From: Candidatus Stoquefichus sp. SB1
GTDB lineage: Bacteria; Bacillota_I; Bacilli_A; Erysipelotrichales; Coprobacillaceae
Length of the DNA stretch: 64,000 bases
NCBI RefSeq assembly: GCF_001244545.1
Contig: NZ_LN852695.1
Coordinates: forward strand, 372,001-436,000
Direction: 5' to 3'
In this document: positions 2,451-44,659 of the stretch, in pieces
How the letters are laid out: every line of letters begins with the position of its first letter
Numbering within the stretch: position 1 is the stretch's first letter
The notes under the pieces: generated by a model
The model's database searches: none
Told to the model about the DNA's origin: nothing
What the model saw: the letters and a program-made list of their open reading frames with translations, nothing else
Position numbers and translations under genes: made by a program

Positions 2451-3389
2451 ATGGATAGGATACCAAAGTTATTAATTGTAGATGATAGTGATTATATTTG
2501 TACGCAAATAGAAAAGATATTTATAAATGAGAATATTGAAATCAAAAAGGCTCATGATGGAAAGAATGCATTAATAGCAGTGGAAGAGTTTGCTCCTGAT
2601 TTAATTCTATTAGATGTGATTTTACCAGATACTGAAGGATATGAACTTTATCATAAGGTAAAAGCAATTGATAGAAATAATGCTTTGATTATTTTTCTGA
2701 CTTCAAAAGATCAAGATAATGATGTTGTCAAAGGACTTTCTCTAGGTGCATGTGATTATATTAAAAAGCCTTTTCATAATGAAATTCTAAAATCTAGAAT
2801 TCTTATTCATTTAGAAGAGAAGAAATCTAAGGATGAATTAAAGAAAAAGAATTATGAAATGGAAGCCAATATGAAAAGACTGAATAATTATGCTTTTAAA
2901 GATCCTTTAACTGGGCTTTATAATCGAAGATATGTAGAGGAACAAATTAAGGAAAGAATTATTTATGGTTTAGAACAAACTGTATTGGCATTATGTGATA
3001 TTGATAATTTTAAACATATTAATGATGATTATAGTCATGAAACAGGGGATATTGTTTTAATTGGGATTGCTAATATTATGGAAAGTGTTTCATCTAAAGT
3101 GACAGCTGTACGTTGGGGTGGAGAAGAATTCTTGATTATTTTATTTAATGTTAATCATGATGAGGCTTTTCATATTATTGAAAGAATTCGTAATGATATA
3201 TTTAATTTTCCATTTTATTCTAAACAAGAACGTTTTCACTGTAGTGTTTCAATAGGATTAAATGAATATAATCGAAGCCTTAGTTTTATTCAAAATCTCG
3301 AACAGGTTGATGAAGCTTTATATGCTGGGAAAAGAAACGGGAAAAATTGTACAATATGGTATGATGATATGATAGGTAAACAATTATGA
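2451..3389 (+). CDS. Response-regulator diguanylate cyclase (REC-GGDEF)
   Basis: A PleD/WspR-like arrangement. The N-terminal receiver (residues 6-120) has D11/D12, phospho-acceptor D55 and the KPF lysine. A short coiled linker follows, then a GGDEF domain (about 150-310) with the catalytic motif GGEEF at 223-227 and the upstream signature DPLTGLYNRR. The protein should make cyclic di-GMP from GTP when its receiver is phosphorylated, plausibly by the CheA encoded next. No RxxD inhibitory site lies five residues before GGEEF, so product inhibition at the usual I-site is unlikely. It sits inside the che operon and overlaps cheA by 4 bp (ATGA), tying chemotaxis signalling to c-di-GMP. Substrate specificity is inferred. 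Confidence 0.9.
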   Translation: MDRIPKLLIVDDSDYICTQIEKIFINENIEIKKAHDGKNALIAVEEFAPDLILLDVILPDTEGYELYHKVKAIDRNNALIIFLTSKDQDNDVVKGLSLGACDYIKKPFHNEILKSRILIHLEEKKSKDELKKKNYEMEANMKRLNNYAFKDPLTGLYNRRYVEEQIKERIIYGLEQTVLALCDIDNFKHINDDYSHETGDIVLIGIANIMESVSSKVTAVRWGGEEFLIILFNVNHDEAFHIIERIRNDIFNFPFYSKQERFHCSVSIGLNEYNRSLSFIQNLEQVDEALYAGKRNGKNCTIWYDDMIGKQL

Positions 3390-34687: not shown

Positions 34688-35527
34688 ATGTTATCAATTG
34701 GAGAGTTTTCAAATATATGTAAAGTATCTACAAAAACATTACGTTATTATGCAGATATAGGATTGATATTACCAGTAGAAATTAATCCAGAAAATGGATA
34801 TCGATATTATTCTATTGATCAGTTAGAGACAATGTTATTCATTAATCGTTTAAAATCATATCATTTTTCATTAACTGAAATTAAAAATATTTTAGAATTA
34901 AATGAATCAAAAGAAACAGTTCTTTATATGACTTTAAATCAAAAGAAAAAAGAAATAGAAAAACAATTACAAAAATATGAAACAAACTTAAAACAAATAG
35001 AAGAAGATATGTATAATCTAAAAGAAGGAAAAAGTATTATGTCTTTTTTAGAAAAGATAGATGTTCAATGTATAAATGTATCTCCTATATCTATTTTAAG
35101 TATCCGTAAAATGGTATCTGAAAATCAATTCCCTCAAGAATATCAACATTGTTTCAATGAACTCTTACAAAGAATGAAAGAAGATAATCTAACAATGGTT
35201 GATGCTCCACTTGTTCTTTTTCATAGTGATGAATTTACACCATTAGGATTAGATACTGAATTTGCTATTCCAATTAAAGAAAATGGATCAGGAAGCAGAG
35301 TCTTTGAGCCAGGATTATGTTTAAAAACAATTCTCTATGGTTCTTATTTAGGACTGCCAGCAGTTTACACAAGACAAAGAGAATGGGCACAACAACATGG
35401 ATATGAAAGTAGTAATGCTGTTTTTGAAGTTTATATTAATGATCCTCATGATGTTCAAAATGAAAATGATTTAATTACAGAAATCTATTATCCAATAAGA
35501 AAGAGAGAATCCTATGAATCAAGATAA
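34688..35527 (+). CDS. MerR-family regulator with GyrI-like effector domain
   Basis: A 279-aa activator of the BmrR type. The N-terminal MerR domain begins LSIGEFSNICKVSTKTLRYYADIGLILP and continues with NGYRYYSIDQLETMLFI. A dimerisation coiled coil follows (about 75-115), then a C-terminal GyrI-like ligand domain (about 125-275) that in relatives binds hydrophobic drugs. Start at 34688 after GGGAGGAACAAT. It overlaps the serine hydrolase gene by 14 bp. The promoter in front has the MerR 19-bp spacer, so it should control itself and the hydrolase. Confidence 0.9.
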   Translation: MLSIGEFSNICKVSTKTLRYYADIGLILPVEINPENGYRYYSIDQLETMLFINRLKSYHFSLTEIKNILELNESKETVLYMTLNQKKKEIEKQLQKYETNLKQIEEDMYNLKEGKSIMSFLEKIDVQCINVSPISILSIRKMVSENQFPQEYQHCFNELLQRMKEDNLTMVDAPLVLFHSDEFTPLGLDTEFAIPIKENGSGSRVFEPGLCLKTILYGSYLGLPAVYTRQREWAQQHGYESSNAVFEVYINDPHDVQNENDLITEIYYPIRKRESYESR

Positions 35528-36497
35528 AATAAAAGAATTAGAAGAGAAAATAAATGAAGAATACAATAATACTGTAGGTATTGTTGTACTTAAAGATCAT
35601 CAATTACAATATGAACATTACTTTCATGAATATGATCAAAATAATTATGTCCATGTTTATTCAGTTACAAAAAGTATTTTATCTATACTTATAGGAATTG
35701 CAATTGACAAAGGATATATCCAAAATGTTCATCAAAAAGTTCTAGATTTCTTTCCCAAATATCAAGTCAAAAAGAAAGAATTAACAATTCAAAATATCAC
35801 AATAGAACATTTATTAACAATGAGTGCTCCATATAAATATAAAGATTCACCTATATCTTATATAAAATACTTTAAAAGCAAAGACTATTTAAAATCAACT
35901 TTAGATTTATTAGGCGGTAAAGATGCGATTGGAAAATTCCGTTATACCCCTATAATTGGACCAGATATTTTATCAGGTATTCTTGTAAAAGCAACTGGTC
36001 AATCAGTTTTTGATTTTGCAACTGAAAACTTATTGAAACCTTTAGATATAACAGTTGAAAAAAATATTGTTTTAAAGAGTGCTAAAGAACAAATGGCATT
36101 CAATGAATCTACAACAATAAGTGGTTGGGTTACTGATTCACAAGGACTTAATACTGGAGCATGGGGATTAACACTTTCACCAATAGATATGGCAAAGATT
36201 GGTCAATTGTATTTAAATGATGGACAATGGGAAGGACAACAAATTGTATCGTCAAAATGGTTGACTGAGAGTACTCAAGAACATAGTGAGTGGGAAGAAA
36301 ACCATTTAAAATATGGATATCTTTGGTGGATTATTAATGAGGATGAAAGAGCTTGTGCAGCTATGGGAGATGGTGGAAATGTTATTTATTTTAATAAACA
36401 AAAGAATTTGGTTGTTTCAATAGCTTCTCTATTTATTCCTGAGGCTAAAGATCGTATAACACTTATTCAAGAATATATTGAACCCCTTTTTGAATGA
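35514..36497 (+). CDS. Serine hydrolase, beta-lactamase class C-like
   Basis: A 327-aa serine hydrolase of the beta-lactamase/penicillin-binding-protein fold (class C/esterase group). The catalytic SxxK is in YSVTKSILSIL, a YxN-like position in MSAPYKYKD, and the third box is probably in GDGGN. There is no signal peptide, so it is cytoplasmic, unlike true beta-lactamases; it is more likely an esterase or amidase acting on the compound sensed by its MerR partner. The two genes overlap by 14 bp and share the MerR-type promoter. A strong terminator follows. Confidence 0.85.
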   Translation: MNQDKIKELEEKINEEYNNTVGIVVLKDHQLQYEHYFHEYDQNNYVHVYSVTKSILSILIGIAIDKGYIQNVHQKVLDFFPKYQVKKKELTIQNITIEHLLTMSAPYKYKDSPISYIKYFKSKDYLKSTLDLLGGKDAIGKFRYTPIIGPDILSGILVKATGQSVFDFATENLLKPLDITVEKNIVLKSAKEQMAFNESTTISGWVTDSQGLNTGAWGLTLSPIDMAKIGQLYLNDGQWEGQQIVSSKWLTESTQEHSEWEENHLKYGYLWWIINEDERACAAMGDGGNVIYFNKQKNLVVSIASLFIPEAKDRITLIQEYIEPLFE

Positions 36498-36522: not shown

Positions 36523-36563
36523 AAAGAGATGATAGTAGCAATGTCTATGTATCATCTCTTTTT
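36523..36563 (+). terminator. Terminator after serine hydrolase
   Basis: A perfect 12-bp stem AAAGAGATGATA / TATCATCTCTTT (36523-36534, 36550-36561) with a T run 36559-36563. It insulates the phase-variable surface gene that follows. Confidence 0.9.
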
Positions 36564-36564
36564 G

Positions 36565-36650
36565 TCCGTTGAATATCCTATTTATCAGTGTGCTCCCAAA
36601 ACTCAATTAAAATGCTTTATAATTGAGTTAGTACAATAATGTACACATTA
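36565..36650 (+). repeat. Direct-repeat leader, copy 1
   Basis: An 86-bp segment that recurs at 42598-42683 in the same orientation, with 79 of 86 positions identical. It contains a TATAAT (36618-36623), a TACAAT (36632-36637) and an AACTCAATTA/TAATTGAGTT hairpin, and ends in the left inverted repeat. It probably carries the fixed promoter of the switch, though no good -35 can be seen. Confidence 0.85.
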
Positions 36651-36749
36651 ATTAACGGACTTTTATTTAGCATTAATAGAAGGAGCTATCTAAAATATTT
36701 AGGTATTTCCTTTTTTTATGCTCAATTCTTTATATTTTCTAATGTGTAC
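36641..36749 (+). other. Invertible DNA element 1 (phase-variation switch, apparent OFF orientation)
   Basis: A 109-bp element bounded by GTACACATTA (36641-36650) and its inverse TAATGTGTAC (36740-36749). The element matches element 2 (42674-42782) at 103 of 109 positions after reverse complementation. It contains a hairpin 36682-36710 (12 of 13 pairs, two of them G-T, with a 3-nt loop) followed by T7 at 36711-36717, a rho-independent terminator facing the 1920-aa surface gene. In this orientation transcription from the fixed upstream region should stop before that gene. No recombinase gene is in the window. Confidence 0.85.
36682..36717 (+). terminator. Invertible terminator inside element 1
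   Basis: The stem 36682-36694 with 36698-36710 (loop ATA) has a single C/T mismatch, followed by TTTTTTT. Its mirror copy in element 2 has its T7 on the opposite strand. Confidence 0.75.
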
Positions 36750-36777
36750 TTTAACAAACTTTGAAGGGAGTGAAAGA

Positions 36778-39700
36778 ATGAAGAATTTAGTAAGTAAGAT
36801 AATCAGGTTTGAAAAGAAGAATCCTCAATATAAGAAAACAATAACTATTATGTATTGTTTATTATATGTCTTACAGAGAGTCACAGATTTTATGGACTCA
36901 TTTATCAGACAAGTACAAAGGATAATTCTTAAAAAACAAATTGTATCTTTAGTTTTGACACTTATCTTGGTTATCTCAATGATAACTCAACCTATAAGTG
37001 TTTATGCAACTGATACAACAACAAGAAATACATCACCAAGCAATGAAACAAATGGTGATATTCCTATTGATGCAGAGCATTTTCCAGATGATGTATTTAG
37101 AGAGTATATATTGAATGACGTTTCTATTAATACAAACGGAGATAAAATCCTATCATCAGCAGAAATTAATTCTGCTACTGATATTGAAATTTTGTTTAAA
37201 AAAGATATAAAATCGCTGAAAGGATTGGAATATTTTACAGCGCTTAAAACACTTTACTGTGATGGAACAGGGATTACAGAGCTGGATATCAGCAAGAATG
37301 TAGCTTTAGAAGAATTAAGTTGTGGCAGCGTAGGAATTAGAGAAGTGGATATCAGTAAAAATACGGCTTTAAAAGTGATAAGCTTTAGTGGTACCCAAAT
37401 TGAGGAATTAGATATTAGTCAAAATACCAAATTAAAAAAATTGTGGTGCTACAATACAGGCATTTCTCAACTAGATGTTAGTAAAAATTTCGATTTAGAA
37501 GCATTATATTGTGATAGGACGAATCTAGAAAGTCTGAACGTCAATAAAAATCAGAATTTAAAAGTATTGACCTGTTATCAAACAGGAATAGAGACACTTG
37601 ATGTAACACAAAATACAAATTTAAAGCAATTAGATTGTCATAATACAAAAATCAAAAGTTTAGATGTCAGTAAAAACACTGAATTACAAGAGTTATCTTG
37701 TTATAGTACAAAAATCGAAAGTTTAGATGTTAGCAAAAATACAGATTTAACGAAATTGAACTGCAGTATGACCGAAATTGAAAATCTAGATATAAGTAAG
37801 AACTCAAAGTTAAAAGAACTGGAGTGCTATTCTATAGCAATAGAGAAATTAGATGTAACACAAAATATAAATTTAGAAGATTTGTCTTGCTATAGTACAA
37901 AAATCCAAAGTTTGAATGTTACCCATAACTTAAGTTTAAGAGTACTGGACTGCAGTGATACAGCAATAGAGAAATTAGATGTAACAAAAAATACAAATTT
38001 AGAGCAATTATGGTGTTCTTCTACAAAAATCCAAAGTTTGAATGTTATCCAGAACTTAATGTTAAAAGTACTGGACTTCAGTGGTACAGCAATAGAGCAA
38101 TTAGATGTAACACAAAATATAAATTTAGAAAATTTATATTGCTATAATACAAAAATTGAAAGTCTAGATGTTAGCAAGAATTCGAAACTAAGAGAATTAT
38201 TATGCTATAATACTTCTCTTGTATACTTGGATATAGGAAATATTTCTTCTTTAAAAAAGATACAAATGCCAACACTATCTTCGATAGAGTTAAAAGAGAA
38301 AAACAGTACCTTTAATATTGCAGATAAATTTCCAGGAATTGATCCTCAAAAAATAAATGTAACAAAAGGAGCAAAATATGATTCTAATACTGGCATTGTA
38401 AGTGAATATCTTGATAGAACACCCATTGAATATTCTTATGATTGTGGAACTGCTGATGGTAAAGCGATAACATTGAATGTCAAATTGACAATTCTCCAAA
38501 AAGAGGAGAGTACCATTAAAATCACTACCAATGATTTGAATAAGACATATGATGGAAAGCCAGTAATTACTCCTAATGTTGAAAAGACAGGGAGTAGTAA
38601 AGCCATTACTTATATTTGGAAAAAATGGAATGATCAAACATTCGAATGGGATGAAATTCCAAGTGCTCCGACAGAGGCAGGAGAATACGAATTTCACGCC
38701 CATGTAGACGCAGATGACAATTATATCGCAGCAGAAGATTACGTATACTTTGATATTGATAAAGCGGATGGTAGCATTGCCATTGAAACGATTGATGGCA
38801 AGACATATGACGGAAATGATTTTAATCATGCACCAGCAATCAAAGAGAAGACAGGAACTGGAAATGTTACTTATACATGGGAAATGAAGAAAGGCAATGA
38901 CTGGGAAGAAATTGAATCTATTCCTAAGAACGCTGGAGAATATCGTGTAACTGCTATATTGGAAGCTGATGATAATTACAAATCTGCAAAGTCTGAACCT
39001 GTAGAATTTGAGATTTCACAGGCATCTAATAGTTGGAAAAAGGCTCTTTCAATAGATAATTGGACTTATAAGGAAGAAGCAAAAGAGCCTAGTTCAGAAG
39101 CAAAGTTTGGGGAAGTCACATATACCTACAGCAAGAAAGGCTTAAATCAATATTCAACAACAGTTCCAACAACAGCAGGAGATTGGACAGTCAGGGCAAC
39201 TGTTGTAGGAACTGATAACTACAAGGGAATGGAAGCAACTAAAGACTTTACCATTTACAAAGCTATAGCGCTTGCCATTACTGAACCTCAAAATCTGAGT
39301 GGTGTACAGGATGATAAGCTTTCCACAGTGACATTGCCAGAATATTGGTCATGGGTTGATAAGGATACGGTTTTGAAAGCAACCAATAATGGGTATAAAG
39401 CTAGATTGACAGTTGATGATGCAAATTATGACTATACAGGTGTTGCAGGCTACAGTGAAGGTAATCATTATGTTGAAAGAACTTTAAAGGTCGTTGTACC
39501 AAAGGTTGAGAATGAATGGACAGTCGATCCTTCAATAGAGAACTGGACATACAATGAAACTGCAAGTACACCTGTAGGTACTGCAAAGCATGGAACTGTT
39601 ATCTTTACCTATAGTTCAAGCAAGGATGTCGAATTCACTAAGAATAAGCCAACAACTGCTGGAACATGGTATATGAAGGCTTATGTGTCAGCAGATGATG

Positions 39701-42540
39701 AGTATAAGGAACTCATTAAAGTCATAGAATTCAAGATTTTAAAGGCAGAAAACAGCGGTCTTAAAATCATATCAACAAGTGAAGAATTAACAACTGACTA
39801 TACTGGCAAGACATATGATAAAACTCCTAAGATCAGTAAACCTGATAATTATACAGGAACAGTGACCTTTAAATGGGAGAAGAAGAAAGCTGATGGCAGT
39901 TGGGAAGAGTTACTATCTAAACCTACAGATACTGGTACATATCAAGTTAGTGCTATAGCCAGTGAGGATAACAATTATCAAAAAACAGAATCTGAACCAG
40001 TGCAGCTTGAAATCAGAAAAGCTGAGAGTACGATTACAGTTAAGGGAACTTTAGATAAAGCCTATGACAGCAATTCAGTCAGCAATCCAACAATTGACAG
40101 GACAGGCAGCAGCAAAACACCAGTCTATACATGGGAAAAGAAGAATGGAAATGACTGGGAAAAACTTGAATCTGCACCTAAGGATGTCGGAGAATATCGT
40201 GTCAAAATTGATGTGGCTGAGGATGATAACCACAAGTCAGCAACAGCAACAAAGGAATTTACAATATCACAGGCAACTAATAGCTGGAAAGATGAACTTC
40301 AGATAGAGAACTGGATATATGGTGAAGAAGCAAAAAAACCAAGTTCAAAAGCAAAATTTGGTGAAGTCACATATACCTACAGCAAGAAAGGATTAAATCA
40401 GTATACTACAACAGTTCCAACAACAGCAGGAGATTGGACAGTTAAGGCAACTGTTGAAGAAACTGATAATTATAAAGAAATAGAAGCGACAGTAGATTTC
40501 AAAATTAATAAAGTTAATGGAAAGATCAGCATAACTTCTTCACAGCAGGATCTAAAGAGCATCTATAATGGACAGCCATTCAACAAGACAGTGAATGTAG
40601 AAAAGCCTGTTAGTTATACAGGAACAGTCACATTTAAATGGGAAAAACAGATGAATAATAGTTGGGAAGTCTTAACAGACAAGCCAAAAGATGCAGGAAC
40701 ATATCGTGTAACTGCAATAGCTAGTGCTGATAACAATTATAAAGAAGCACTGTCAGAACCTGTACAATTCGAAATTGAAAAGGCAGAGGCACCTATTATT
40801 ACTGAACCAAAAAATCTAAGTGGTGGAGAAGGTCAGAAACTTTCTACAGTTGCCTTATCAAATGGATGGAAATGGCTAAAGGATGATACAGTCTTAACAG
40901 CTGATCAGACAAAGTACCAGGCATATTTGGAAGTTGATGACAGCAATTACGATTATGCAAATACAGATGGCTATAATGAGAGTAAGCATTATGTTGTCAG
41001 AGCATTAACAATCATAATCAAGGCTCAAAACGAATGGAAAGTCAGTCCATCAATAGAGAACTGGACATATGGTAAAGAAGCAAACAAACCAAATGCAGAA
41101 GCAAAATTTGGAGAAGTTAAATATACTTATAGTGACAAAAAAGATGGTGTCTTTACAGATAAAATTCCTACAGATGCAGGAACATGGTATGTCAAGGCAC
41201 AAATCAATGAAACAAGTAACTATACAGGATTGGAAGAAGTCAGGGGATTCAATATTGATAAGGCAGAACCAGTGTATACATTGCCAGTCAATCTTAATGC
41301 AGTCTATGGACAGACACTAGGAGAGATAGCACTTAATGATGGCTTCGAATGGGTAGAGCCACTTAAAAAGGTAGGAGATGCTGGTGATGTCACAGCAATG
41401 CTCAGATATACACCAGATGATTCCAATTATAAGACAGTAACAATTCCAGTTGTTATTAAGGTAAATAGGGCAGAGAATGAATGGATTCATCATCCATCAA
41501 TAGAGAACTGGATATATGGAGAAGAAGCAAAAGAACCAACTTCAGAAGCAAAGTTTGGAGAAGTCGAATATACATATAGTGACAAAAAAGATGGTGTCTT
41601 TACAGATAAAGTTCCTACAGATACTGGAACATGGTATGTCAAGGCACAAGTCAATGAAACAGGTAACTATACAGGATTGGAAGAAGTGAAGGAATTCAAT
41701 ATTAATAAAGCAATCCCAACTGTTGAATTGCCTACGAATCTAAAAGGTGTAGAAGAACAGTTGCTTTCAACAGTTGTCCTGCCAAAAGGTTGGACATGGA
41801 CTGATGGAGATATTATGCTTAGTGTTCAAAACAGTGGATATAAAGCAAGACTTATTGTTGATGATATAAATTATGACTATACTGGTGTAGAAGGATACAA
41901 TAAAGAGAATCATTATGTGGAAAGAACATTGAATGTTTCCGTTGCAAGTAAAGAAGCAGGAAGCATACAAAAGGAAGTTAAGAAAGGGAATAATGCACCA
42001 GATGTAAAGATACCTATGACTGAAAGTCAACTTGCCAATATTGTTTTAACAGATGATGAAAAGAAGGCAGTAGAAAAAGGCAGTGATATAAAGATTGTTC
42101 TGACAGTTGATGATGCTTCAGGACAGATCAGTATCAAGGATAAGACAGTTGTAGAATCAGTGCTGGGAGAAATGAAGATAGGACAGTATCTGGATGTCAG
42201 TCTGTTAAAGATCATTGATCATGAAGAAAGCAGGATAAGCCAAACAAGAGGCATTATCAGAATCACAATAGAGATACCAGAAAGCCTAAGGAAGGCAAAC
42301 AGGGAATTTGTGATGATACGCGTCCATGATGGAGTGGCAACAATTCTAAAGGATTTAGATACTGATGCGAATACAATAACGATTGAGACAGATCAATTCT
42401 CTACATATGCTATTGCATATCAGGATAAACAAAGCAATATAGCAGAAACGGAAGATAGAACAGTCATAGGAGGATATATAATTCTTGCTGGGCTATCAGG
42501 AATGTTATTGTTCATTAACAGAAAACAAAAAAGGATATAA
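36778..42540 (+). CDS. Giant phase-variable LRR/MBG-repeat surface protein
   Basis: A 1920-aa cell-surface protein. The long N-terminus ends in a hydrophobic stretch (about 55-70) with likely cleavage after SVYA (residue 77). Next come 16 leucine-rich repeats of 21 aa (LDVSKNTxLxELxCYxTKIES pattern, internalin/BspA-like), and then many MBG/YDG-like beta modules carrying repeated KTYDG, EIENWTYGEEA-type and AGTYxVxA motifs up to about residue 1720. A final domain (SISQ to FSTYAIAYQDK) follows. It ends with a membrane helix (IILAGLSGMLLFI) and NRKQKRI, but shows no LPxTG; the site reads ETEDRT. Start at 36778 after AAGGGAGTGAAAGA. The role is probably adhesion, inferred from architecture. It lies behind an invertible terminator. 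Confidence 0.88.
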   Translation: MKNLVSKIIRFEKKNPQYKKTITIMYCLLYVLQRVTDFMDSFIRQVQRIILKKQIVSLVLTLILVISMITQPISVYATDTTTRNTSPSNETNGDIPIDAEHFPDDVFREYILNDVSINTNGDKILSSAEINSATDIEILFKKDIKSLKGLEYFTALKTLYCDGTGITELDISKNVALEELSCGSVGIREVDISKNTALKVISFSGTQIEELDISQNTKLKKLWCYNTGISQLDVSKNFDLEALYCDRTNLESLNVNKNQNLKVLTCYQTGIETLDVTQNTNLKQLDCHNTKIKSLDVSKNTELQELSCYSTKIESLDVSKNTDLTKLNCSMTEIENLDISKNSKLKELECYSIAIEKLDVTQNINLEDLSCYSTKIQSLNVTHNLSLRVLDCSDTAIEKLDVTKNTNLEQLWCSSTKIQSLNVIQNLMLKVLDFSGTAIEQLDVTQNINLENLYCYNTKIESLDVSKNSKLRELLCYNTSLVYLDIGNISSLKKIQMPTLSSIELKEKNSTFNIADKFPGIDPQKINVTKGAKYDSNTGIVSEYLDRTPIEYSYDCGTADGKAITLNVKLTILQKEESTIKITTNDLNKTYDGKPVITPNVEKTGSSKAITYIWKKWNDQTFEWDEIPSAPTEAGEYEFHAHVDADDNYIAAEDYVYFDIDKADGSIAIETIDGKTYDGNDFNHAPAIKEKTGTGNVTYTWEMKKGNDWEEIESIPKNAGEYRVTAILEADDNYKSAKSEPVEFEISQASNSWKKALSIDNWTYKEEAKEPSSEAKFGEVTYTYSKKGLNQYSTTVPTTAGDWTVRATVVGTDNYKGMEATKDFTIYKAIALAITEPQNLSGVQDDKLSTVTLPEYWSWVDKDTVLKATNNGYKARLTVDDANYDYTGVAGYSEGNHYVERTLKVVVPKVENEWTVDPSIENWTYNETASTPVGTAKHGTVIFTYSSSKDVEFTKNKPTTAGTWYMKAYVSADDEYKELIKVIEFKILKAENSGLKIISTSEELTTDYTGKTYDKTPKISKPDNYTGTVTFKWEKKKADGSWEELLSKPTDTGTYQVSAIASEDNNYQKTESEPVQLEIRKAESTITVKGTLDKAYDSNSVSNPTIDRTGSSKTPVYTWEKKNGNDWEKLESAPKDVGEYRVKIDVAEDDNHKSATATKEFTISQATNSWKDELQIENWIYGEEAKKPSSKAKFGEVTYTYSKKGLNQYTTTVPTTAGDWTVKATVEETDNYKEIEATVDFKINKVNGKISITSSQQDLKSIYNGQPFNKTVNVEKPVSYTGTVTFKWEKQMNNSWEVLTDKPKDAGTYRVTAIASADNNYKEALSEPVQFEIEKAEAPIITEPKNLSGGEGQKLSTVALSNGWKWLKDDTVLTADQTKYQAYLEVDDSNYDYANTDGYNESKHYVVRALTIIIKAQNEWKVSPSIENWTYGKEANKPNAEAKFGEVKYTYSDKKDGVFTDKIPTDAGTWYVKAQINETSNYTGLEEVRGFNIDKAEPVYTLPVNLNAVYGQTLGEIALNDGFEWVEPLKKVGDAGDVTAMLRYTPDDSNYKTVTIPVVIKVNRAENEWIHHPSIENWIYGEEAKEPTSEAKFGEVEYTYSDKKDGVFTDKVPTDTGTWYVKAQVNETGNYTGLEEVKEFNINKAIPTVELPTNLKGVEEQLLSTVVLPKGWTWTDGDIMLSVQNSGYKARLIVDDINYDYTGVEGYNKENHYVERTLNVSVASKEAGSIQKEVKKGNNAPDVKIPMTESQLANIVLTDDEKKAVEKGSDIKIVLTVDDASGQISIKDKTVVESVLGEMKIGQYLDVSLLKIIDHEESRISQTRGIIRITIEIPESLRKANREFVMIRVHDGVATILKDLDTDANTITIETDQFSTYAIAYQDKQSNIAETEDRTVIGGYIILAGLSGMLLFINRKQKRI
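37281..38288 (+). repeat. 16 coding repeats of 63 bp (LRR)
   Basis: From the first LDIS at 37281 to the last LDIG at 38226 the spacing is exactly 15 x 63 bp, with no indel. Each unit encodes a 21-residue leucine-rich repeat; units around 37660-37740 and 37850-38110 are close to one another at DNA level. Confidence 0.9.
38500..41960 (+). repeat. MBG/YDG-type module repeats within the giant surface gene
   Basis: A series of related modules of about 70-90 residues. Strong near-identical DNA pairs include the regions at 39030-39250 and 40280-40490, at 41030-41250 and 41480-41700, and at 39290-39490 and 41750-41940. Codon use is visibly richer in G and C than in the LRR part. Confidence 0.75.
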
Positions 42541-42561
42541 ACATTAATAAAGATAATGTTA

Positions 42562-42596
42562 AAGAAGAGGTTTATACAGATTAAATCTCTTCTTTT
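42562..42596 (+). terminator. Terminator after giant surface gene
   Basis: A 13-bp stem (42562-42574 with 42582-42594) with one G-T pair, followed by TT. It separates the two phase-variable units. Confidence 0.88.
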
Positions 42597-42597
42597 A

Positions 42598-42683
42598 TCC
42601 GTTGAATATCCTATTTGTTAAAGCACTCCCAAAACTTAATTAAAATGCTTTATAATTGAGTTAGTACAATAATGTACACATTA
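42598..42683 (+). repeat. Direct-repeat leader, copy 2
   Basis: The second copy of the 86-bp leader, 79 of 86 identical to 36565-36650. Differences cluster in a 10-bp patch around 42617-42627, while the TATAAT/TACAAT part is identical. Confidence 0.85.
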
Positions 42684-42782
42684 GAAAATATGAAGAATTA
42701 AGCATAAAAAAAGGAAATACCTAAATATTTTAGATAAATCCTTATATTAATGCTAAATAAAAGTCTGTTAATTAATGTGTAC
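42674..42782 (+). other. Invertible DNA element 2 (apparent ON orientation)
   Basis: A 109-bp element bounded by GTACACATTA (42674-42683) and TAATGTGTAC (42773-42782), the reverse complement of element 1 with 6 differences. Here the hairpin 42713-42741 is preceded by A7 and has no T tract on the plus strand; its plus-strand pairing is also worse (three mismatches). A transcript from the fixed leader should therefore read through into the 616-aa surface gene. Confidence 0.85.
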
Positions 42783-42808
42783 CTTTACGAACAAAAGGAG
42801 GGAAACAA

Positions 42809-44659
42809 ATGAAGTATCATTTAAAAGGGAAGTACAGATTAAAAGTGAATGCATTTTTAGTTAAACAGTTTAAGGTATGGTGTAGTCTATTTTTAATTAT
42901 TGGTAGTTCATCATACATTTTAAAAAATGCTTATGCACAAGAAACTACAACTACACATTGGGACATATCAGATGCATCAAATCCAGGAGCGGTTTCAGCT
43001 GATTATGCTGATGGAACACTAACGATTAGTGGTAATGGAACAATGAAAGTTATTTTACCTGATGCTATTTTAAATGATATACCGTGGTATGGTTATAAAG
43101 ATAATATAACGAAAGTGATTATTGAAGGGAATATTACTGCAACTAATTTACATGGAATGTTTCGAGATTTAACAAACCTCAAAACAATTAAAAATTTAGA
43201 CAAAATCAATACAAGTCATGTGACGAATATGTCTACTATGTTTTATAATTGCAATTCATTAACTAAATTAGATGTATCCAACTTTGATACAAGCAAAGTA
43301 AAAGATATGTCTTCTATGTTTTTTAATTGTAAGGCTTTAACTGAATTGGATGTATCCAACTTTAATACAAGCAAAGTAAAAGACATGTCTTCTATGTTTT
43401 ATAATTGCCAGTCTTTAAATGAATTAGATGTATCTAACTTTAAAACAAGCAACGTAACCGATATGTATTCTATGTTTTCTAATTGTAAGGCTTTAACTGA
43501 ATTAGATGTATCCAACTTTAATACAGGCAAAGTGACTAGTATGTTTTATATGTTTTGTAATTGTGAGGCTTTAACTGAATTAAATGTATCTAACTTTGAT
43601 ACAAGCCAAGTGACTGATATGGCTGGTATGTTTTATAATTGTCAGGTAATAAAAAAATTAGATATATCCAACTTTGATACAAGTCAAGTGACTAATGCAT
43701 TCTTTATGTTTTCTAGTTGTCAATCACTTGTTAATGTTCAAGGGTTAGACATCACTAAAGATAACTGCGATGTTGATTTTATTTTTAGCAACACTCCTCA
43801 TTTATCTCAAGTTCATGTGAAGACAAAAAAACAGTTAGAAATTCCTTATACTGATAGTAATCATAGATGGTATGATGAAGATGATAAAATCTTAAATGAT
43901 AATGATAGTGGTACTGCAGCGATTATTCCTATATCTGATGACTATGTGACTTATACATTATCACCAGCTATTACTCATGATATTATGTATGAATTAGATG
44001 GTGGAACTTTAGAAAGTAAACAAGATAAATTTGAAATTCTAGAAGGATATGAATTACCTATACCTACAAAGAGTGAATATTTCTTTGATGGATGGTATGA
44101 CAGTGCAGACTTTGATAGGAAGATTACGAAGATAGAGAAATATACATTAGAAGATAAGACAGTCTATGCTAAATGGACTAAGAAAGCAGAACTACAAGCA
44201 AATAACTTTAGTGTGAAGTTATCAAATGAAACCTATACAGGAGTTGAAATAACATATACCATAACATCTTCACTTGAAGGCGTTGGTATACCTCAAGTTA
44301 AAAAACTTGAAAAAGATGGTATTGAAATAAATGAAGTTAGAGAAGCAGGTACATATAAAATCACATTTGATGTTGATGAGGGCGAGAAATATCTGGGTGC
44401 TACAGGTTTAACTATTGTGTTTACAATAGAAAATAAACCAGTTGTAGAACCTGAGGATCCAACACGACCAAATGATAAACCAATACCACCAGTTAATAAA
44501 CCAACTATCCCAATTGAAAACTCAACACCATCAACTGATAATTCTCAGAAGATAACAAATGTTGAAACAGGAGATAATAGTTTTATAATATTATATGGTG
44601 GGATGGTATTAGTTGGATTAGGAGTAATGATTTATTTAAGAAGAAAAGAGAATGAATAA
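42809..44659 (+). CDS. Phase-variable BspA-family (DUF285) surface protein
   Basis: A 616-aa surface protein. The signal sequence has its hydrophobic core at WCSLFLIIGSSSYIL and likely cleavage after AYA. BspA-type DUF285 repeats of 26 aa follow (LTELDVSNFNTSKVKDMSSM then FYNC), at least six tandem units plus flanking degenerate ones. A Listeria-Bacteroides repeat (YELDGG..., FDGWYDSADF..., VYAKWTKK) and a further beta module come next. A Pro-rich stalk (PEDPTRPNDKPIPPVNKP) leads to NVETGD, a sortase-type signal, then a membrane helix and RRKENE. Start ATG 42809 after AAAGGAGGGAAACAA. The role is probably an adhesin, anchored to the wall by a sortase encoded elsewhere. Confidence 0.9.
   Translation: MKYHLKGKYRLKVNAFLVKQFKVWCSLFLIIGSSSYILKNAYAQETTTTHWDISDASNPGAVSADYADGTLTISGNGTMKVILPDAILNDIPWYGYKDNITKVIIEGNITATNLHGMFRDLTNLKTIKNLDKINTSHVTNMSTMFYNCNSLTKLDVSNFDTSKVKDMSSMFFNCKALTELDVSNFNTSKVKDMSSMFYNCQSLNELDVSNFKTSNVTDMYSMFSNCKALTELDVSNFNTGKVTSMFYMFCNCEALTELNVSNFDTSQVTDMAGMFYNCQVIKKLDISNFDTSQVTNAFFMFSSCQSLVNVQGLDITKDNCDVDFIFSNTPHLSQVHVKTKKQLEIPYTDSNHRWYDEDDKILNDNDSGTAAIIPISDDYVTYTLSPAITHDIMYELDGGTLESKQDKFEILEGYELPIPTKSEYFFDGWYDSADFDRKITKIEKYTLEDKTVYAKWTKKAELQANNFSVKLSNETYTGVEITYTITSSLEGVGIPQVKKLEKDGIEINEVREAGTYKITFDVDEGEKYLGATGLTIVFTIENKPVVEPEDPTRPNDKPIPPVNKPTIPIENSTPSTDNSQKITNVETGDNSFIILYGGMVLVGLGVMIYLRRKENE
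43271..43738 (+). repeat. Six 78-bp coding repeats (DUF285)
   Basis: GATGTATCCAACTTT-like starts at 43271, 43349, 43427, 43505, 43583 and 43661 are exactly 78 bp apart, each unit encoding 26 residues. Confidence 0.9.

Follow-up and report, generated by a model that had tools for sequence, protein, structure and literature searches.

The 1920-residue surface-protein gene in the window (the whole stretch of 64,000 nucleotides that was analysed, C5:372001-436000 of the genome G000) is preceded by one of four genomic copies of an element that we interpret as a terminator inverton. In each copy, transcription would start in a fixed leader, a serine recombinase would flip a 101-bp segment, and a one-way terminator within that segment would set the gene ON or OFF; we place the probability of this reading at about 80%. 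The arrangement is best explained, and with support from the sequence data, by an intrinsic terminator that lies between the fixed leader and the gene and depends on orientation. The four copies in two orientations, the terminators on one strand only, the dyad sites, their conservation and their recurrence across the order can be read directly from the DNA. As sequenced, locus 1 (1920 amino acids) is predicted to be OFF, and locus 2 (616 amino acids) and loci 3 and 4 (1003 and 676 amino acids) are predicted to be ON. The genome falls in the same genus as Candidatus Stoquefichus massiliensis AP9 (G001), and thus belongs to a gut bacterium that is a Stoquefichus relative in Erysipelotrichales.

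A predicted terminator inside a putatively invertible segment

All features of locus 1 are given on the plus strand. The upstream gene (35514-36497) is followed by its intrinsic terminator at 36523-36566 (-15.0 kcal/mol, T5), which isolates the next leader, so that a separate promoter, beyond 36566, is required for locus 1. The fixed leader (36568-36630) contains a perfect -10-like TATAAT at 36618-36623, with no good -35 seen, and a TACAAT at 36632-36637 overlaps the left recombination site. This site, GTACAATAATGT.AC.ACATTAATTAAC at 36631-36656, is a 12-2-12 dyad with its core at 36643-36644, and its right-hand partner, ATTTTCTAATGT.GT.ACTTTAACAAAC, occupies 36734-36759 (core 36746-36747). 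The invertible segment of 101 bp (36645-36745) lies in what would be the OFF orientation, and contains no sigma-A promoter scoring above random. Within it, the hairpin GGAGCTATCTAAA-ATA-TTTAGGTATTTCC (36682-36710) and the T7 tract that follows (36711-36717) are aimed at the 1920-residue gene (36778-42540), the product of which has LRR_4 and MBG repeats and a C-terminal membrane segment. The original prediction gave 36682-36717 for the hairpin, which holds for hairpin and T7 together, the hairpin alone ending at 36710. Inverted repeats flank the element, and the sites are 26-bp dyads centred on AC/GT, longer than the bare 14-bp repeat. It is also to be noted that the fixed leader itself contains a near-perfect 13-bp inverted repeat (36600-36629), which overlaps the TATAAT and is broken in locus 4.

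The predicted pairing of 12 of the 13 stem positions was confirmed; it includes two G.U pairs, and the remaining position is a C.U mismatch. The folded RNA has an energy of -11.8 kcal/mol, and none of 200 dinucleotide shuffles was as stable (z -4.1). The stem is AT-rich, with 3 G-C pairs, and would fail criteria demanding 4. Since it is both interrupted and AT-rich, a strict consensus terminator scanner called no terminator at locus 1, and terminators were therefore called by an energy-based scan instead.

Four copies in two orientations

At locus 2, the plus-strand intrinsic terminator of gene 1 (42561-42600, -14.5 kcal/mol) again isolates a plus-strand fixed leader (42601-42663) with TATAAT at 42651-42656. 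The left site, GTACAATAATGT.AC.ACATTAGAAAAT (42664-42689, plus strand, core 42676-42677), and the right site, GTTAATTAATGT.GT.ACCTTTACGAAC (42767-42792, plus strand, core 42779-42780), bound a segment at 42678-42778 that is predicted to be in the ON orientation. Its terminator (42706-42741) lies on the minus strand, with the hairpin at 42741-42713 and the T7 at 42712-42706, and points away from the plus-strand gene at 42809-44659. The latter encodes the 616-residue surface protein, which has DUF285/BspA-like repeats, List_Bact_rpt, and a C-terminal TGDN motif with a membrane anchor. On the plus strand, an A7 (42706-42712) precedes the hairpin, which contains three mismatches and is not followed by a T tract (-5.8 kcal/mol, z -1.9), whereas hairpin and T7 on the minus strand reach -11.9 kcal/mol; the statement that the T7 of locus 2 lies on the other strand was thus borne out. 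The leaders of loci 1 and 2 are near-identical up to AATGTACACATTA, where divergence begins, and reverse complementing the locus 1 segment restores identity between the two elements to 94%, which is the expected trace of inversion between two sites.

A whole-genome search of G000 retrieved two further copies, namely, locus 3 (C5:870211-870403, L031), preceding the 1003-residue gene, and locus 4 (C5:16148-16310, L032), preceding the 676-residue gene on the minus strand. Read in the direction of the gene, locus 1 is OFF-type and loci 2, 3 and 4 are ON-type; the locus 1 element is 94-95% identical to the reversed elements of loci 2 and 3, the leaders staying in register and the change occurring at the core. 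Opposite orientations were seen only between such paralogous loci. All four segments are of equal length, the core spacing of 103 bp being kept even in locus 4, and at each of the four loci the sites are 26-bp 12-2-12 dyads with an AC/GT core. In the energy-based scan the terminators of loci 1 to 4 scored -11.7, -11.1, -11.5 and -9.7 kcal/mol, each with a T7 and on one strand only, and these energies are comparable to those of the neighbouring gene-end terminators. The locus 4 segment is only about 70% identical, yet in the comparison with locus 1 it keeps 23 of 24 positions in the 3' arm of the hairpin and the T7, as opposed to 30 of 53 in the remaining interior.

All four loci encode surface proteins, and those of loci 2, 3 and 4 share a common N-terminus and DUF285/BspA-like repeats. 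The locus 3 protein (L031:4428-7439) is a mosaic, in which an N-terminus of the locus 2 family is joined to a C-terminal portion of about 424 residues that is 77% identical to locus 1. Scans for the exact sites in genome and viral contig collections, from which near-own records may be absent, found none, and thus the site sequence of G000 is not shared exactly elsewhere. A plain DNA search of 98 relatives gave nothing beyond weak matches in three, apparently by chance.

Likely position of the promoter

Gene-end terminators upstream of loci 1 to 3 isolate each unit, and only a short stretch separates the right site from the start codon; the promoter must therefore be located either in the leader or within the element. 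The fixed leaders of loci 1 and 2 are identical from TATAAT to TACAAT (36618-36637 and 42651-42670), exactly as had been pointed out, and the leaders of all copies keep the TATAAT (TATACT in locus 4), without a good -35. The elements themselves were said to hold no good promoter, and indeed, by consensus scoring only, the best sigma-A-like site within the window elements scored 6.6 against a median of 6.4 for random AT-rich DNA; this site overlaps the hairpin and is absent from the diverged locus 4. By elimination, we infer a promoter in the fixed leader, weak by consensus. Across 16 elements, the copies of which are not independent, leader promoter scores exceeded those of the forward strand of the element (p=0.005), but they were not above those of whichever of its strands scored higher (p=0.48). 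On average, the leaders reached no more than roughly the 70th percentile of random DNA. A block, TCCGYTGAAWWTCC, located at 36568-36581 of the window, some 37-50 bp before the -10-like element, is present at loci 2-4 as well, even at locus 4; it is possibly a regulator site, which could explain the missing -35.

Recurrence across the order

We searched for the inverted-dyad pattern in 60 relatives, in 295 genomes belonging to the order and in 395 belonging to the class. Complementary cores were found in 23 of the 33 order-wide matches analysed (expected 1/16; p ~1e-20). A terminator on exactly one strand was present in 16 of the 23 elements with complementary cores vs none of the 10 with non-complementary ones (p=3e-4), and the association held when G000 was left out (p=0.001). 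Relative to the gene, about 9 would be ON and 7 OFF if two that were assessed visually are included; the elements at G066 C3:31482 and G067 C24:2203, both of genus g39, fell below the energy-scan criteria and were counted by eye only. Orthologous elements of the sister species G074 and G083 had the same orientation.

Across the order, the elements precede genes for large secreted proteins and a PTS gene, and one lies within an exopolysaccharide operon. In Ca. Stoquefichus massiliensis AP9, a 94-bp cassette (L145:4085-4179) separates rmlD from a sugar-transferase gene in an exopolysaccharide cluster, and its terminator is directed toward the genes (predicted OFF as sequenced). The element of G019 has a perfect hairpin of 11 bp with T6, which precedes a PTS EIIC gene and faces away from it (predicted ON). 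Genus g39 has such elements in ten distinct places (one element being on two contigs), mostly before secreted proteins of 781-1226 residues, and those downstream proteins that were scanned have GH123, F5/8 type C, FIVAR or Big_2 domains. In addition, IR-flanked terminator-like hairpins of the form AAAGGATATC...GATATCCTTT plus a T run were seen in another family of the class, at G373 C3:103409 and at G551 C23:47481 and C45:63036, some of them with AT cores. Taken over all elements, the 12 distinct core spacings tend to fall close to whole helical turns (R 0.70, p ~0.003).

Recombination sites and the candidate enzyme

Family searches detected no recombinase adjoining any of the four loci, and the enzyme would thus act in trans. 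G000 has two serine recombinases (PF00239) of about 200 residues, L040 (C5:632920) and L041 (C5:35156), both best related to Mpi, with scores of 48 and 55 bits that are far under the NCBIfam Mpi cut-off of 272; it also has 16 tyrosine-recombinase matches. Homologs of the serine enzymes were found in 26 of the 60 genomes searched, and inverted dyad pairs occur directly downstream of small serine recombinases at L102 (core GT), L106 (AC), and L096 and L104 (AG). The L096 and L104 pairs were found by a profile that had not been trained on them, with no hit in 10 shuffled sets. The half-site ACATTATTGTAC and its counterpart ACATTATTGTAA at L102 agree in 11 of 12 positions. The core differs among systems and the half-sites are alike, as expected for serine recombinases. 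The sites look like those of serine recombinases, and the enzyme is probably a small Mpi-like serine recombinase, for which L040 and L041 are the candidates.

Orthologs of L041 (76-82% identical, support 100/99) occur in two further genomes. In all three genomes, the L041-type gene is followed by a conserved dyad pair (core AG/CT) directly before a GGDEF gene (L065:6009-6140, at about 35.0 kb on C5 of G000; L116:3650-3790; and L123 near 2830-3040), the spacings being 105, 115 and 94 bp. This arrangement is likely to be a phase-variable c-di-GMP switch. The half-site next to L041 is somewhat different from the window type, and no window-type site pair was found beside either L040 or L041. The presence of L041-type recombinases together with terminator elements in three genomes at first suggested L041 as the enzyme, but we do not favour it over L040: such elements also occur in a genus with small serine recombinases only about 54% identical to L041, and L041 has its own, slightly different sites before the GGDEF gene.

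Most of the recombinase-adjacent elements in relatives are without terminators, and some resemble invertible promoters; one enzyme family thus seems to serve both designs. Such terminator-less elements, recombinase-linked or related, are found at L106:2767-2929 (G034), L102:2711-2862 (G033), L096, L104 and L147, and the gene that follows encodes a secreted protein (L106), a GGDEF/EAL-like protein (L102), or a conserved protein of about 152 residues (L096, L104 and L147). From its sequence, the L106 element looks like an invertible promoter, and that of L096 possibly does so as well.

Proposed mechanism and alternatives

In the mechanism that we propose, transcription would begin within the fixed leader, a short distance before the left site. 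A trans-acting Mpi-like serine recombinase of about 200 residues would pair the two 26-bp dyads and cut at the central AC/GT dinucleotide, such that the 101-bp segment flips, as the anatomy of the sites and the relatives suggest. In one orientation, the nascent RNA would form the hairpin followed by U7 and stop within about the first 90 nucleotides, leaving the gene OFF; in the other, the transcribed strand would have no T tract after the hairpin, and the polymerase would read through into the gene (ON). The efficiency of this termination and the inversion in living cells are both inferred.

Two alternatives retain inversion and change one component. The segment could instead hold a promoter from which the gene would be transcribed in one of the two orientations, in the style of fim, hin or the Bacteroides Mpi, with the hairpin merely as an insulator. 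Elements with similar sites in relatives are promoter-like (L106, TTGAAA-17-TATAAT, score 12.2; L096, 10.9), a TTAGCA-18-TAAAAT in locus 1 aims at the gene, and the G066 C3 element has TCGAAA-17-TATAAT on its terminator strand. Nonetheless, we regard an invertible promoter as unlikely, since the best candidate in the window elements is random-like, overlaps the hairpin and is not kept in locus 4, where the hairpin arm and T7 are kept, and the elements with strong terminators have no consistent internal promoter; the original preference for a terminator switch over an invertible promoter is supported on the same grounds. Alternatively, the terminator could be flipped by a tyrosine recombinase of the XerC/D or RecV kind. 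G000 does encode XerC, XerD and several stand-alone enzymes of this family, and the known cwpV switch uses RecV, but the 12-2-12 dyads with a central dinucleotide that varies between loci and half-sites that are alike, and the matching sites directly adjoining small serine recombinases in relatives, make this rather unlikely.

The remaining alternatives dispense with inversion. If the elements were static IR-flanked terminators or decayed repeats that had lost inversion, their orientations would be historical accidents, with which the equal orientation of the G074 and G083 orthologs agrees. This is quite improbable, however, because the terminator aims at its own gene in about 7 of 16 cases, before intact long reading frames, the paralogous elements are reversed exactly at the core, and site pairs and spacing are conserved while the element interiors diverge. 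A conventional leader attenuator or riboswitch, for which orientation would be irrelevant, would account for a terminator in the 5' leader, but not for one that, in about 9 of the 16 elements, points away from the gene, nor for the inverted recombination sites that bound the element; it is hardly credible. No Rfam family was found in the window, which rules out a riboswitch as far as Rfam goes.

Comparison with known switches

Mpi/Hin-type DNA invertases are serine recombinases of about 200 residues that act on dyad sites with a 2-bp core, and to our knowledge the known Mpi and Hin switches flip promoters. Our elements share with them the inverted dyads of about 26 bp with complementary central dinucleotides and the small serine recombinases in G000, but differ in that the cassette would flip a terminator, and in that L040 and L041 fail the curated Mpi model.

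In the cwpV switch of Clostridioides difficile, a promoter lies upstream of a 195-bp segment with 21-bp repeats that is inverted by the tyrosine recombinase RecV, and in the OFF orientation an intrinsic terminator is formed where the left repeat meets the inverted DNA (Emerson et al. 2009, PMC2784873). Here too, apparently invertible DNA lies between a promoter, in our case a putative one, and a large surface-protein gene, an intrinsic terminator would act in the OFF orientation, and no recombinase gene is adjacent; by all sequence criteria, the mode of action is that of cwpV. In contrast, the segment is 101 bp, the sites are 26-bp dyads with a 2-bp core and of serine-recombinase type, the hairpin (36682-36710) is contained wholly in the segment, some 25 bp away from the left site and not at a repeat junction, and the element is present four times in a single genome, with further examples in the order. 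Thus, the likeness to cwpV that was first suggested stands for the mode of action and not for the position of the terminator or the enzyme, which is probably a serine recombinase and not RecV; because of these two differences, we do not claim membership in the cwpV type. Two orthologous cassettes before a 315-residue lipoprotein gene (L192:3544-3649 and L198:3591-3696) have a predicted hairpin that uses the recombination site itself, and are therefore nearer to the cwpV layout. The flagellar switch of C. difficile likewise acts after transcription start, through termination, but there termination needs Rho factor and inversion needs RecV (PMC7446863), whereas the hairpin and T7 described here predict factor-independent termination.

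Implications

When cwpV was described, termination modulated by DNA inversion was unique to its authors' knowledge (PMC2784873), and a 2025 survey of gut invertons named terminators as future work (PMC11892184). A literature search restricted to non-subscription papers retrieved no earlier report of terminator invertons with serine recombinases, nor of phase variation in Stoquefichus or Erysipelotrichaceae. The cwpV-like action being already known, what we predict is a widespread class of terminator invertons. On balance, it seems probable that Erysipelotrichales carry this as a general class that arose separately from RecV/cwpV, with cores 93-103 bp apart around a complete intrinsic terminator, flipped by Mpi-like small serine recombinases; depending on the locus, one enzyme family would flip either a promoter or a terminator cassette, and a terminator cassette could even sit inside an operon, as between rmlD and the sugar transferase in Ca. 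Stoquefichus massiliensis. Inverton surveys that seek promoters in flipped DNA would miss or misread such cassettes. If the reading is true, the ON/OFF state could be read from raw sequence by the strand of the T tract, and four independent switches would allow up to 16 combinations of surface proteins in this organism. Gut Erysipelotrichales would then possess a compact, portable module for switching surface adhesins, glycan-binding and -degrading proteins, exopolysaccharide and sugar uptake.
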